Below, piece after piece: positions 17,576 to 64,000 of a stretch of DNA of 64,000 bases. How positions within the stretch are numbered: the first letter of the stretch is position 1; each line of letters starts with the position of its first letter. Where the stretch lies: contig JAPOQU010000124.1 of the NCBI GenBank assembly GCA_026710545.1, positions 186,001 through 250,000 of the forward strand. Reading direction: 5' to 3'. The position numbers were made by a program, and so were the translations under genes. The notes under the pieces were generated by a model. It was not told the origin of the DNA and did no database searches. It was given only the letters and a program-made list of their open reading frames with translations. This DNA comes from Gammaproteobacteria bacterium (GTDB lineage: Bacteria; Pseudomonadota; Gammaproteobacteria; Eutrophobiales; Eutrophobiaceae).

Positions 17576-18649
17576 TTACAACAGGCTGGTCTGCTGCAGG
17601 TTTTGCGCTGTAGACAACGGTTGCAGGTTCGATAAGCCTACGCCAAGCAACCTGACCCGGCGTTTGCCGGCATCCGTCTTCGCCAGCAATTCAGCCAGTA
17701 CCGGCCCAACGGAGGTTGCCGTCACGAATGGTTCAGGGAGGGTTTTACTGCGCGTTACCTGCTGAAAATCTGCGTATTTGACCTTGATGGTGACCGTCCT
17801 GGCTGAAAACTGCTTGTTTGCCAGGGAGCCAAAGGTCTCATCGGCAAGTTTCTGCAGGCTCCCGAGCAATAGCTCCGTGTCGAGCAGGTCTTCCAAGAAA
17901 GTTGTCTCACTGCTGATGGACTTGCGTTGCCGCCGGTTGCTTACCGGACGCCTGTCTATGCCCCTGGCGATAAGGTAATAGAATTCACCTGTCTTTCCGA
18001 AGTGCCGGTGCAACTGTTCCCGGCTGAGCATCTTGAGGTCCGCTCCGGTGCTGATATTCAGTTTCGCCATCCTGGCCTCTGTCGCCTTGCCCACTCCAAA
18101 AAACCGTCCTACCGGCAGGTTCTCGATAAAAGCTTCTCCGGCATCAGGGGTTATCACGTACAGTCCGTCGGGTTTATCCATATCCGAGGCTATCTTGGCC
18201 AGGAACTTGTTATAGGATACACCTGCCGATGCCGTCAGGCCCGTAGTATTCCTTATCTCCGTTTTGACAGCTTCGGCGATACGCGTCGCGGATCCCCGGA
18301 ACAGGCCGCTGTCACTGACGTCGAGGTAGGCCTCATCCAGGGACAAAGGTTCTACCAGTTCGGTATAGCGCAGGAAAATGGCCTTTATCTGCCCCGAGAT
18401 GCGCCTGTACACGTCAAATCTCGGCTTGATGAAGATGGCTTCAGGACACAGCTTGGCTGCCCTGGCGGAAGACATGGCCGAGTGAATCCCGAATTTTCTG
18501 GATTCATAACTGCATGCAGCCACGACCCCGCGCCGTTGCGGAGACCCACCGACAATAACCGGCCTGTCTCGGTATTCCGGGTTATCACGCTGTTCGACTG
18601 AAGCATAAAAAGCATCCATATCTATATGAATGATCTTGCGATTATCCAT
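17576..18649 (-). CDS. dinB: DNA polymerase IV (Y-family)
   Basis: 357 residues. The opening IIHIDMDAFYASVEQRDNPEYRD, the SYESRKFGI finger and the LSLDEAYLDVS catalytic acidic block identify DinB. It performs translesion synthesis. It is divergent from the Sel1-repeat gene with 72 bases between. I could not find a convincing LexA box (CTG-N10-CAG) there, so SOS control is unproven in this genome. Confidence 0.95.
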   Translation of the reverse strand: MDNRKIIHIDMDAFYASVEQRDNPEYRDRPVIVGGSPQRRGVVAACSYESRKFGIHSAMSSARAAKLCPEAIFIKPRFDVYRRISGQIKAIFLRYTELVEPLSLDEAYLDVSDSGLFRGSATRIAEAVKTEIRNTTGLTASAGVSYNKFLAKIASDMDKPDGLYVITPDAGEAFIENLPVGRFFGVGKATEARMAKLNISTGADLKMLSREQLHRHFGKTGEFYYLIARGIDRRPVSNRRQRKSISSETTFLEDLLDTELLLGSLQKLADETFGSLANKQFSARTVTIKVKYADFQQVTRSKTLPEPFVTATSVGPVLAELLAKTDAGKRRVRLLGVGLSNLQPLSTAQNLQQTSLL

Positions 18650-60014: not shown

Positions 60015-61262
60015 CTAGTCGATTACCTGCTCGCCTGTAGCGTATACCAGCCAGATGATTGCGCCGAATACCTGAACTGCGGCCACAGTCATAAAGAGTC
60101 CGGCATAACTGCCGGTCTGGTCGAGCAGCCAGCCTGCCAGGGCAACACCGACGATACCTGGTATGGTGGCAAACGTATTGGATATCCCTACCAGAACGTC
60201 CGCGTAGCGCGGCGCGATGTCGAGGAAGTTTGGCACGTAGCCCGAGAAGGTGAGCGCGATGAACGCCAGCGCGCCGCACATCACCGACAATGCGATCAAA
60301 GGGGTATCCGCATGCAGCGCAAGCAGGAAAAATACGGCCGAGCCTGCCAGTCCGGCGGACTGCATGAGTTTGCGGACAAAGGTCAAGCTGTAACCGCGTG
60401 TCCTGAGCCTGTCGGCCGCCCAGCCCGCGATATTGGTCATCACGAACATGGTCAGCCATGGCGCAGCAGAATAGAACCCTGCGCTCGTGACGCTGAGGGA
60501 CTGTGCGTCGCGGAAGTAACTGGGCAACCAGGCAAGCATCATGTAGATGCCCCAGTTTGTACAGAAATGGTTAACGAATACGGCCAGCACGGCTCGGTGT
60601 GACAACAGTTTTTTCCAGGGAATGCTTGCGGCCGCCTGCTTACTGCTTGACGAACTGCCCAGCAGTTCCAGTTCCTCAGCGGTAATCCCGGGATGCTCGT
60701 CCGGATAACTGGTTGCCTTGTAATACCAGAAGATAGCCCAAACTACACCGGCCAGACCAAAAACATAAAATACGGAGGGCCAGCCGTAACGGGACACGAT
60801 CCAGCCGGTAGTAGTCAACGCAAACAAGGTGCCCAGGGGTATTCCGCTGGCCAGGAACCCCATGGAACGGGAGCGCTCAGCTTCGGGAACCCAGCGCGAA
60901 AACAGACTGTAGGAGGCAGGGAACATCGCCGCTTCACCCAGACCCATGGCGATGCGGACTGCTATTAACAGGGGAAGCGATATCATCGCTGCAACCGGCG
61001 TCAGTATGGTAAAGACAGACCATGACAACACGGCAAAGCCGAGAACAAACTTGCCGCCGATTTTATTCGCCAGCCAACCGCTGGGCGCTTGCAGGATCAT
61101 GTAACCGATGAAAAAGGAGGAAAGCACGAACCCCTTGGTGGTATCCGACCAGCCGAAGGCCTCCTGCATGGGAATAATGGCGACCGATATGTTTACCCGG
61201 TCGATATAGCAGATAAACGCGGCGCAGAAACAGAGCAGGACGATGTTATGGCGTTTTTGCAC
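60015..61262 (-). CDS. MFS transporter (anion:cation symporter-like)
   Basis: 415 residues with twelve predicted TM helices. The opening YIDRVNISVAIIPMQEAFGWSDTTKGFVLSSFF and PSGWLANKIGGK (MFS signature between TM2 and TM3) resemble the ACS family (organic acid and phosphate symporters). It probably imports or exports a carboxylic acid related to the adjacent catabolic genes. It begins 3 bases after the small secreted-protein gene. Confidence 0.85.
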   Translation of the reverse strand: MQKRHNIVLLCFCAAFICYIDRVNISVAIIPMQEAFGWSDTTKGFVLSSFFIGYMILQAPSGWLANKIGGKFVLGFAVLSWSVFTILTPVAAMISLPLLIAVRIAMGLGEAAMFPASYSLFSRWVPEAERSRSMGFLASGIPLGTLFALTTTGWIVSRYGWPSVFYVFGLAGVVWAIFWYYKATSYPDEHPGITAEELELLGSSSSSKQAAASIPWKKLLSHRAVLAVFVNHFCTNWGIYMMLAWLPSYFRDAQSLSVTSAGFYSAAPWLTMFVMTNIAGWAADRLRTRGYSLTFVRKLMQSAGLAGSAVFFLLALHADTPLIALSVMCGALAFIALTFSGYVPNFLDIAPRYADVLVGISNTFATIPGIVGVALAGWLLDQTGSYAGLFMTVAAVQVFGAIIWLVYATGEQVID

Positions 61263-61265
61263 GTG

Positions 61266-61490
61266 TCAGGGACAGGGCGTAACAGACTCCTGAGGGACAC
61301 CCTCAAGGGCTGTATTCAGTGCATTGTGCGCGGCGAATTTCGCATTGACGTAGCCTGCGAGCAGTTCCACGCCGCCAGTCGCGCTATACTCACCTGCAAC
61401 TCCGGGCAAATCCCTTTTTTCATCGGCAACCGGAACCTGAATGCTGATGAGCAGGGCGAATAATAAATATATGGTCGGCTGTATTCTCAT
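61266..61490 (-). CDS. Small secreted hypothetical protein
   Basis: 74 residues. Signal peptide (MRIQPTIYLLFALLISIQVPVA), then a short unremarkable mature part ending VPQESVTPCP. TAAGG lies 8 bases before the ATG, and the gene ends 3 bases before the MFS start, suggesting coupling. No family is recognised. It could be a truncated remnant of a longer exported protein, as it sits at the border of a compositional change. Confidence 0.4.
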   Translation of the reverse strand: MRIQPTIYLLFALLISIQVPVADEKRDLPGVAGEYSATGGVELLAGYVNAKFAAHNALNTALEGVPQESVTPCP

Positions 61491-61533
61491 ATAAAATGCC
61501 TTACGCTCGTCATTTTATCGCCTATTATCCGTC

Positions 61534-61553
61534 ATTCCGGCAAAAGCCGGAAT
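61534..61553. repeat. ATTCCGGC palindromic repeat (dRS3/REP-like)
   Basis: Perfect 8-base arms around AAAA, preceded by GTC and followed by CCAG. The GTCATTCC...GGAATCC format is a common dispersed palindrome in beta- and gammaproteobacteria. Only one copy is seen in this window. It separates the secreted-protein gene from the helicase gene. Confidence 0.6.
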
Positions 61554-61572
61554 CCAGTAAGCTTAAAACCCT

Positions 61573-61578
61573 TATAAT
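61573..61578 (+). promoter_or_regulatory. Perfect -10 box upstream of the PLD-helicase gene
   Basis: TATAAT at 61573-61578, 53 bases before the ATG; no clear -35 (the spacing falls on the end of the palindromic repeat). Confidence 0.35.
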
Positions 61579-61631
61579 GGATTTCAGGACAAATTTAAAA
61601 CGCAAAGTTCACCTGAGCTGACAATAAACTT

Positions 61632-64000
61632 ATGCCGCGCATCTTCGATAACATAAAACAACACCTGCGTCAGGCATTAGCCGAAACAATGGAAGTATCT
61701 GAACGAGCAGACTTCTGCATCGGCTATTTCAACTTGCGCGGCTGGCGGACAATTGATGAACACGTTGAACAATGGGATGGTGGAGATGGTCACTGTTGCC
61801 GTCTCCTCGCAGGCATGCAACGACTACCCCAGGAAGAGCTTCATCTCGCAAAAAATCTCTCCGGTAATCAAGAAAGGCTGGATAATCAGACGGCATCACA
61901 ATTGAAACGCAAGCTGGCGCAGGAATTTCGTGAACAATTGACAATAGGAGCACCCACCAATGAAGATGAAGCCGGTTTACGAAGATTGGCGCGACAGATC
62001 AAAGCAAAAAAGCTTGTAGTTAAACTGTTTCTCAAACATCCTCTTCATGCCAAGCTTTACTTGCTGTTCCGTTCTGACCCGATTAATCCAATAACAGGAT
62101 ATCTGGGAAGCAGCAACCTGACATTATCAGGACTGTCCCTTCAGGGCGAACTTAACGTGGACGTGCTCGATCACGATGCTTGCCAAAAGCTGTCAAGGTG
62201 GTTCGAAGACCGGTGGGATGACCGATGGTGTGTTGATATTTCAAAAGAACTCATTGAAATAATCGAGGAAAGTTGGGCTAGAGAGGAACTGATACCACCT
62301 TTCCATATCTACATCAAAATTGCTTATCACTTATCACAGGAAGCCAGAGCCGGCCTGACTGAATTTCGTATTCCAAAAGACTTTGGCAATAAACTTCTGA
62401 ACTTTCAAACGGCGGCAGTAAAAATAGCAGCATACCATCTCAACCGGCGGGGCGGTGTCATCATAGGCGACGTTGTCGGACTGGGTAAAACACTCATGGC
62501 AACTGCACTTGCAAGAGTGTTTGAAGACGATCATGGACTTGAGACACTGATAATTTGCCCAAAAAACCTTGTCCCCATGTGGGAAGACTACCGGGATCAG
62601 TATCGAATGCGCGCGCGCGTTCTATCACTCAGTAGAGTAATAAATGAACTCCCCAAGTTGCGTCGTTTTCGTCTCGTAATAATTGATGAAAGCCATAACC
62701 TGAGAAACCGGGAAGGAAAACGATATCGAGCAATATACGAATATATTGCTGAAAACGAAAGTAAATGCATCTTGCTCTCTGCCACTCCATACAACAAAAC
62801 GTATCTCGATCTATCCAGTCAGCTCCGCTTGTTCGTACTCGATGATCAAGATTTGGGAATACGTCCGGAACGCCTGTTGCGGGAGATTGGCGAGACCGAG
62901 TTCATACGAAGACACCAGGCGCACGTTCGTTCCCTTGCGGCGTTCGACAAGTCAGGGCATGCCGATGACTGGCGGGAACTCATGCGCCTGTATCTTGTGC
63001 GCCGCACTCGTAGTTTTATCCAGGATAATTATGCGAAGACAGATCCTGAAAACGGGCGGAAATATCTCACTTTCGAGGATGGGGCAAGATCTTATTTTCC
63101 TGTTCGTGTACCAAAAACTGCCCGTTTCATTATTGACAATCAATACTCTCGACTCTTTACTGGCAATGTAGTTCTTGCCATTAATGGATTAGAACTCCCC
63201 CGCTACGGGTTGGGCAATTTCGTGACGCAGTCACCCCGTATTACACCAACTCCGACAGAGAGCGAGATAATAAATGACCTCTCGCGCGCCGGCAAACGGC
63301 TTATGGGTTTCTGCAGAACAAACCTTTTCAAGCGCTTGGAAAGCAGCGGACATGCCTTTCTGTTATCTGTGGAATGGCATATTCTCCGAAACTTTATATT
63401 TCTGCATGCCATTGAAAATCAAAAACCTCTTCCAATCGGCACGACTGACGCAGGCCTTCTCGATTCTTATTCTTTCGATGAAGATTCTGACAGCATCATC
63501 GGTGATATTTTTTATGACGAAAATATTAAGGAGAGTGAAACGGTTGTGACAACCAATCGGCTCAGAACGGGAGAGGAGTTCCGCAAAAGAGCCGCAGAAA
63601 TATATACGCTGTACCAGACTCAATATAGCAACCGTTTCCGCTGGCTGGGTGCACACCATTTCATTAAGGATCTGCAAAAAGACCTGCTGACTGATTCGTC
63701 CACCCTGCTCGGAATACTGAAAACTTCCGGGGATTGGGATGTATCAAAGGACGCCAAGCTTGAGGCGTTGCAGCGAATACTCACGGATGAACACCCCGAC
63801 AAAAAGGTTCTCGTTTTTACACAATTTGCAGATACCGTGAGATACCTGGAAAGCCAGCTAAAGGTTCGCGGGATCACAAAGATAGCTGCCGTAACCGGCG
63901 CTTCTACCGATCCTACTGGTCTCGCTTGGCGCTTCAGTCCGAGAAGCAACGAGAAAGAGGGACACATCTCTTCTGATGATGAATTACGAGTGTTGGTTGC
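61632..64000 (+). CDS. PLD-like nuclease / SNF2-family helicase fusion, N-terminal part (cut by window edge)
   Basis: 789 codons open to the right edge. Residues 1-200 form a phospholipase-D-like domain: HAKLYLLFRSD with H139 and K141, followed by GYLGSSNLTLSGL, an HxKx4D-type half site. From about residue 260 there is a superfamily 2 helicase: Walker A GDVVGLGKT at 279-287, DESH at 352-355, LLSATPYN as motif III, and VLVFTQFADTVRYL opening the second RecA-like domain. The DNA is visibly richer in A+T, with more AAA, ATA and AGA codons than the preceding genes. Such fusions occur in bacterial defence islands; the specific system cannot be named without the genes to the right. Confidence 0.85.
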   Translation, partial: MPRIFDNIKQHLRQALAETMEVSERADFCIGYFNLRGWRTIDEHVEQWDGGDGHCCRLLAGMQRLPQEELHLAKNLSGNQERLDNQTASQLKRKLAQEFREQLTIGAPTNEDEAGLRRLARQIKAKKLVVKLFLKHPLHAKLYLLFRSDPINPITGYLGSSNLTLSGLSLQGELNVDVLDHDACQKLSRWFEDRWDDRWCVDISKELIEIIEESWAREELIPPFHIYIKIAYHLSQEARAGLTEFRIPKDFGNKLLNFQTAAVKIAAYHLNRRGGVIIGDVVGLGKTLMATALARVFEDDHGLETLIICPKNLVPMWEDYRDQYRMRARVLSLSRVINELPKLRRFRLVIIDESHNLRNREGKRYRAIYEYIAENESKCILLSATPYNKTYLDLSSQLRLFVLDDQDLGIRPERLLREIGETEFIRRHQAHVRSLAAFDKSGHADDWRELMRLYLVRRTRSFIQDNYAKTDPENGRKYLTFEDGARSYFPVRVPKTARFIIDNQYSRLFTGNVVLAINGLELPRYGLGNFVTQSPRITPTPTESEIINDLSRAGKRLMGFCRTNLFKRLESSGHAFLLSVEWHILRNFIFLHAIENQKPLPIGTTDAGLLDSYSFDEDSDSIIGDIFYDENIKESETVVTTNRLRTGEEFRKRAAEIYTLYQTQYSNRFRWLGAHHFIKDLQKDLLTDSSTLLGILKTSGDWDVSKDAKLEALQRILTDEHPDKKVLVFTQFADTVRYLESQLKVRGITKIAAVTGASTDPTGLAWRFSPRSNEKEGHISSDDELRVLV

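Follow-up and report, generated by a model that had tools for sequence, protein, structure and literature searches.

A PLD nuclease-SNF2 helicase fusion and a BrxX-like adenine methyltransferase on an acquired gammaproteobacterial island: a probable ATP-dependent restriction-modification system

The nearest published gene set to the one described here is that of the Type-2 BREX-related (BR; Hma/DUF499) systems, which contain an HKD-Swi2/Snf2 helicase, an N6-methyltransferase, a DUF499 protein and a DUF3780 protein (PMC12839542). SauUSI carries a PLD nuclease, an SF2 motor and a target domain in one chain, which translocates and cuts as a dimer (PMC7913695); CglI and NgoAVII have a PLD nuclease and an ATPase with a companion methyltransferase (MTase), and their cutting is ATP-driven (PMC4267653). 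In the Pbe (CxC-ABC/DndE) systems an HKD domain is fused to an SF2 helicase, with a DNA methylase in some of them (PMC10853773).

At the right-hand end of the window, a 64,000-nucleotide stretch of a gammaproteobacterial contig (C124:186001-250000, from a 4.4-Mb assembly of 129 contigs), begins an island whose first gene joins a PLD nuclease to a RapA-like SNF2 helicase. The contig extends 13.5 kb beyond the window, and the island is described here from locus L002 (C124:245001-263552; L002 position = window position minus 59000; Table 1). We consider it probable that the island encodes an ATP-dependent restriction-modification system, made of this fusion and a BrxX/MmeI-like adenine MTase, often with a DprA-like (SLOG/Rossmann) accessory protein, and that it works by the four steps proposed below.

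Table 1. Features of the island and its flanks.
Feature	Position	Strand	Remark
MFS transporter gene	window 60015..61262	-	left flank of insertion site, common to genus members
Remnant of predicted secreted-protein gene, 74 aa	window 61266..61490	-	flank, outside system
Palindromic repeat	window 61530..61560	.	dispersed in genus, not specific to site
Acquired island, part in window	window 61612..64000	+	about 11.4 kb more past window end, to about C124:261389
PLD (HKD) nuclease-SNF2 (RapA-like) helicase fusion	window 61632..64000, gene end C124:251000	+	residues 1-789 of 1122 aa in window
PLD active-site motif region, H139-x-K141 to GSSNLT (residues 139-164)	window 62046..62123	+	
Walker A GLGKT (residues 283-287)	window 62478..62492	+	invariant in 40 relatives
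MTase (Eco57I family, BrxX-like adenine MTase), ~1105 aa	C124:251002-254319	+	
STAND/HEAT-repeat ATPase, 1524 aa	C124:254753-259327	+	
DUF6932 (NTase-like) protein gene	C124:259389-259853	+	
HTH protein, partner of DUF6932	C124:259870-260304	+	
DprA-like protein gene	C124:260420-261082	+	
p7, 214-aa unknown protein	C124:261684-262328	-	past island right edge
MntA-like nucleotidyltransferase (NTase) gene	C124:262968-263420 (L002:17968-18420)	-	past island right edge, very contig end

An earlier note on this DNA had read positions 61490-64000 as a single open frame joining a PLD-like site to an SF2 helicase. The frame and its motifs stand, but the start lies at 61632 and not at 61490, and on the parent contig the gene runs to its full 1122 codons (L002:2632-6000). 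Pfam recognises PLDc_2, SNF2-rel_dom and Helicase_C in the protein, all above their cut-offs. An alignment of 40 relatives shows no variation at nearly all of the named PLD and SF2 residues, including H139, K141, G159, S160, S161, N162 and T164 of the nuclease, so that both the HxK and the GSxN elements characteristic of the PLD superfamily are conserved, with one HKD half-site per chain; further SF2 motifs are DES(H) at residues 352-354 and (S)AT at 384-385. Mean pairwise identity is 0.72 in the PLD domain and 0.59-0.78 elsewhere. The predicted structure is of moderate confidence (mean pLDDT 72.6, below 50 in the loop 155-179 around GSSN), and its best fold matches are RapA and SNF2 motors; fold searches with the whole fusion did not match the PLD domain separately and are uninformative on the PLD fold.

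With Type-2 BR the island shares a RapA-type Swi2/Snf2 helicase that bears an HKD nuclease at its N terminus, and an N6-adenine MTase nearby. However, BR systems have a DUF499 ATPase and DUF3780, and a DUF1156 MTase at the two BR loci that we compared, whereas the island is without either DUF499 or DUF3780. DUF499 (PF04465) is absent from the whole window genome, from both of the plasmids searched and from 20 of 30 records; in single-contig genomes that did have a hit, the hits were all outside the locus, at the closest about 38 kb off (genome G053). The window genome lacks DUF3780 (PF12635), as do 18 of 19 records, the sole hit being on a separate 8-kb contig with a true BR locus. Neither DUF turned up at any of the loci tested for which a placement was possible. 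The BR-type helicase model NCBIfam NF042964 gives the fusion 140 bits (cut-off 1100), the fusion aligns partially with two BR helicases at 22-32% identity (37% within BR), and a profile of the island MTase did not match the two BR MTases. The DUF499, DUF3780, MTase and helicase tests rule out identity with Type-2 BR.

SauUSI is similar in placing a PLD nuclease before an SF2 motor in one chain, and its cutting is ATP-dependent (PMC7913695), as is proposed for the island. SauUSI is, however, a single-gene Type IV enzyme whose SRA-type domain reads 5mC, whereas specificity in the island system apparently lies in a separate MTase. CglI and NgoAVII share with the island a PLD nuclease, a DEAD-family ATPase and an MTase, and cleave near an asymmetric site in an ATP-driven reaction (PMC4267653), but in them the nuclease, which has a B3 target domain, and the ATPase form two subunits, while those of the island are fused, and the island proteins gave no Pfam match to a B3 or Z1 domain. 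The Pbe systems resemble the island in their HKD-helicase fusion and occasional methylase, and differ in that neither such an ABC ATPase nor DndE was recognised in the island; the match to PbeA is weak (41 bits). Type ISP enzymes consist of one polypeptide with an Mrr-like nuclease. Two of them, LlaGI and LlaBIII, likewise combine a motor with an MTase and target-recognition domain (TRD) and have a similar MTase fold (Z 23-24), but the island divides these functions between two genes and has a PLD nuclease.

DISARM class 1 and ARMADA also pair an SNF2-type helicase (DrmD or ArmA) with a PglX-like MTase, but the island lacks their YprA-like helicase (DrmA/ArmC) and DUF1998 protein (DrmB). The earlier note had drawn a comparison with DISARM, but the content of the island is not DISARM-like: there is neither DrmA nor DrmB among the island genes, and DISARM identity is ruled out by gene content. 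The DrmD equivalog NF038317 gives the fusion 132 bits (cut-off 610). DUF1998 (PF09369) occurs in the window genome only on contig C51, where DrmA- and DrmB-like genes lie with NERD- and UvrD-type genes (L118, G000:C51:4640-13518) in a DISARM-like locus without the genes of the island system.

The second island gene, whose likely start is 2 nt past the fusion stop on our reading of the frame coordinates, encodes the MTase, and its motifs GSGAF and NPP are kept among relatives. The best full-length structural match of its model (mean pLDDT 83.9) is BrxX (Z 24.4, rmsd 4.5, 621 residues), from about residue 175, the alignment covering 175-1092; further matches are MmeI, the Type ISP enzymes LlaGI and LlaBIII, and Type I M proteins. 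Mean pairwise identity is 0.60-0.65 over residues 175-800, the core and helical region, as against 0.25 over residues 801-1070, and by its position in the matched structures this latter stretch would be a hypervariable target-recognition region. A conserved fusion beside a variable MTase region is what would be expected if a generic motor-nuclease serves many specificities.

The likeness of the MTase to BrxX, together with the similarity of the motor to RapA/BrxHII-type helicases, could also be accommodated by a BREX- or ARMADA-like exclusion, in which the SNF2 motor would block or remodel foreign DNA, guided by methylation, and the PLD domain would have a minor or signalling part. We regard this as unlikely, as the island has no PglZ, BrxC or DUF499 gene and, because relatives across many phyla keep the catalytic residues of the PLD domain without exception, it can be argued that cutting matters.

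The PADLOC Type IIG model PDLC03628 matches the MTase over nearly its full length with 1137 bits, and PADLOC would probably report the island system only as a Type IIG methyltransferase. The N-terminal ~170 residues, which are extra relative to BrxX, have in our one model the alpha-beta-beta-beta-alpha-beta order of restriction endonucleases. This raises the prospect that restriction is the work of a self-contained Type IIG enzyme, with the nuclease at the N terminus of the MTase, and that the PLD-SNF2 gene belongs to another defence next to it, which we judge to be very unlikely. The equivalent of D..ExK is degenerate, with D52 in 21, A62 in 42 and K64 in 43 of the 45 sequences of one alignment, and because of this we read the domain as nuclease-like but probably inactive, an unusual active site being possible; sequence searches with it gave no match, and the structure comparison, over residues 175-1092, hardly covered it. 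Moreover, the fusion and the MTase are adjacent, and often tightly spaced, in ~90% of loci across phyla and in both of two independently found loci.

The loci across phyla come from a scan of 84,980 species genomes, which gave 296 confirmed relatives, the best 80 of which were used for loci. These best 80 of 296 match the fusion over its full, or nearly full, length at 62-78% identity. The best relatives belong to Latescibacterota, Chloroflexota, Nitrospirota, Acidobacteriota, Bacillota, Verrucomicrobiota, Poribacteria, Pseudomonadota and others. No full-length copy was found in the other genomes of the host family (53 genomes). A tree of 30 rows gives full support to a clade that unites the window copy with those of Latescibacterota, Rhodothermota, Chloroflexota, a Dadabacteria genome and an Acidobacteriota genome, and because it groups with other phyla its position points to transfer of the fusion between phyla. 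Several of these records are probably from marine-sponge symbionts. When 299 genomes of the host phylum were swept independently, two carriers were found besides the window genome (~1%), both with the MTase.

Downstream of the fusion the MTase family was found in 72-73 of the best 80 relatives (by HMM or tblastn), its frame starting mostly within ~30 nt of the fusion stop. When frames of these 80 loci and the window locus were clustered, only three genes were recurrent: the fusion (81 loci), the MTase (71) and the DprA-like gene (32-35), with the next family in 5 loci. The fusion is also carried on plasmids, in Synechocystis PCC 6803 (pSYSX), Anabaena cylindrica and Pelobacter propionicus (pPRO1), and in each a DNA methyltransferase gene lies downstream. 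M.Ssp6803V of Synechocystis (slr6095), considered as an already studied homologue, was dropped, as published work assigns the slr6095-97 operon to the Type I systems.

The third recurrent gene encodes a protein only just recognised by Pfam PF02481 (DNA_processg_A; 30.0 bits, cut-off 29.6), with 53.8 bits for the orthologue at locus L036, and the PADLOC PsyrA model gives it 63 bits. Of 38 loci in which the sequence continues for 4 kb or more past the MTase, 26 have it, and it is on the same strand in 35 of 35 cases. Because it is absent from a third of loci, and also from the three plasmid loci and the two loci of the independent sweep, it may be an accessory component. Other genes past the MTase are variable, many of them lying before the DprA-like gene, and are rich in families already known from defence, namely GajA/OLD-type ATPases, Schlafen AlbA_2, DUF4276, AIPR and AbiJ. 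After the system on pSYSX (L113:15924-18545) there is a set of ThiF, E2 and multiubiquitin genes, resembling a bacterial ubiquitin-like defence operon.

The composition of the DNA changes sharply near 61.5 kb, as the earlier note had observed, and the change persists in windowed GC. GC falls from 0.555 over window positions 1-61364 (1-kb windows: mean 0.555, SD 0.033) to 0.468 in the island, no upstream 14-kb window being below 0.53, and GC3 is 0.69 in the MFS gene upstream but 0.46-0.48 in island genes 1-3. The suspicion that the short gene before the break is truncated proved right: comparison of translations with the intact gene at the same place in a relative (G016; L105:3895-4626) shows that the 74-aa frame keeps both ends of a 243-aa gene and has lost the middle. 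The palindromic repeat that had been noticed before the break is indeed there, and its core occurs once in the window, but it is no sign of this insertion, being dispersed over several tens of sites in the genus, with identity frequently reaching 90% or above.

Comparison within the genus defines the edges of the island. In one genome (G014) the MFS gene is followed by ~170 bp and then an amidohydrolase gene, and homology with this near-empty site ends at window position 61611. At the right, homology with two other genomes (G016 and G012) returns only at L002 16390, ~0.7 kb after the left flank there; identity to these two genomes is 79-91% on both sides. The island spans about window 61612 to C124:261389, or ~14-15 kb. 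Because a genome of the same genus has a near-empty site, this ~15-kb low-GC segment is confirmed as an acquired island, one that genus members lack at this site. Its origin in assembly contamination is unlikely, as both flanks are common to genus members and lie on one contig. The earlier proposal that the fusion is the first gene of an acquired module is upheld by the near-empty site and by nearest relatives in other phyla; that the module is anti-phage is what we infer. Its right-hand neighbours are the adenine MTase, the STAND ATPase, the DUF6932/HTH pair and the DprA-like gene, with no housekeeping genes among them.

We propose that an asymmetric site would be read via the fast-evolving target-recognition region of the MTase, with self DNA adenine methylated (step 1). 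On unmethylated incoming DNA, the MTase might recruit or license the fusion, whose RapA-like SNF2 motor would run along the duplex with ATP (step 2), and, as in SauUSI, a dimer of PLD domains would make the cut on collision or stalling of the motors (step 3). The DprA-like protein could bind single-stranded DNA ends or a nucleotide signal and so enhance, limit or back up the response (step 4). SLOG domains elsewhere sense nucleotide ligands, and our assignment of ssDNA-end binding or nucleotide-ligand sensing to this protein is a guess, whilst the other steps are modelled on the families compared above. DprA loads RecA onto ssDNA during transformation, and a DNA-repair or transformation module (DprA, helicase and MTase) that is no barrier to foreign DNA would suit the distant DprA likeness of the accessory protein, but seems to us highly implausible given the patchy spread in ~1% of phylum genomes, the plasmid carriers, the low-GC island, the hypervariable MTase target region and the defence genes in the variable slot.

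For this probable restriction system we found in the open-access literature neither a published demonstration of phage resistance for the fusion/MTase/DprA-like gene set nor a publication naming it, and we call it 'unnamed' within that scope. We see it as an even call whether this is a distinct, unnamed defence family: a PLD-SNF2 motor-nuclease taking its specificity from a separate BrxX-like MTase, with a DprA-like sensor that recurs as its third member and, between them, a slot in which other defence genes can be exchanged, present in ~1% of host-phylum genomes and currently likely labelled as a lone Type IIG MTase. If so, its motor-nuclease and specificity-MTase design would be placed between Type ISP, BREX and SauUSI, and it would clearly show a DprA-like protein coupled to restriction, which might connect restriction with the processing of foreign DNA once cut. 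The proposal can be tested now, since plasmids of culturable hosts carry the two-gene core (pSYSX of Synechocystis PCC 6803 and pPRO1 of Pelobacter propionicus).

The insertion site itself has held other genes. In G016 (L105:3895-8925) these are a putative nuclease gene, a PIN-domain gene and a decayed DprA-like gene, of which the first 36 bp and the final part remain, 86% identical to that of the window genome; therefore the site looks like a place of turnover for such genes, and is a probable hotspot. Contig C124 stops 2.2 kb past the island, and the old right-hand neighbour is left only as a fragment on contig C9.

Between the MTase and the DprA-like gene of the window genome the STAND/HEAT ATPase, DUF6932 and HTH genes form a cassette (L002:9753-15304), possibly a separate toxin-antitoxin-like or defence unit; DUF6932 and HTH, without the STAND gene, are found again in the same slot of locus L032. 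Near the contig end, 204-bp and 36-bp segments from before the STAND gene (L002:9380-9623) are repeated at L002:17615-17855, side by side with a 41-bp repeat of the HTH gene start (L002:14863-14903, at 17866-17906), apparently a second copy of the cassette with its middle deleted. Any HEPN partner of the MntA-like NTase at this end would fall beyond the end of C124.
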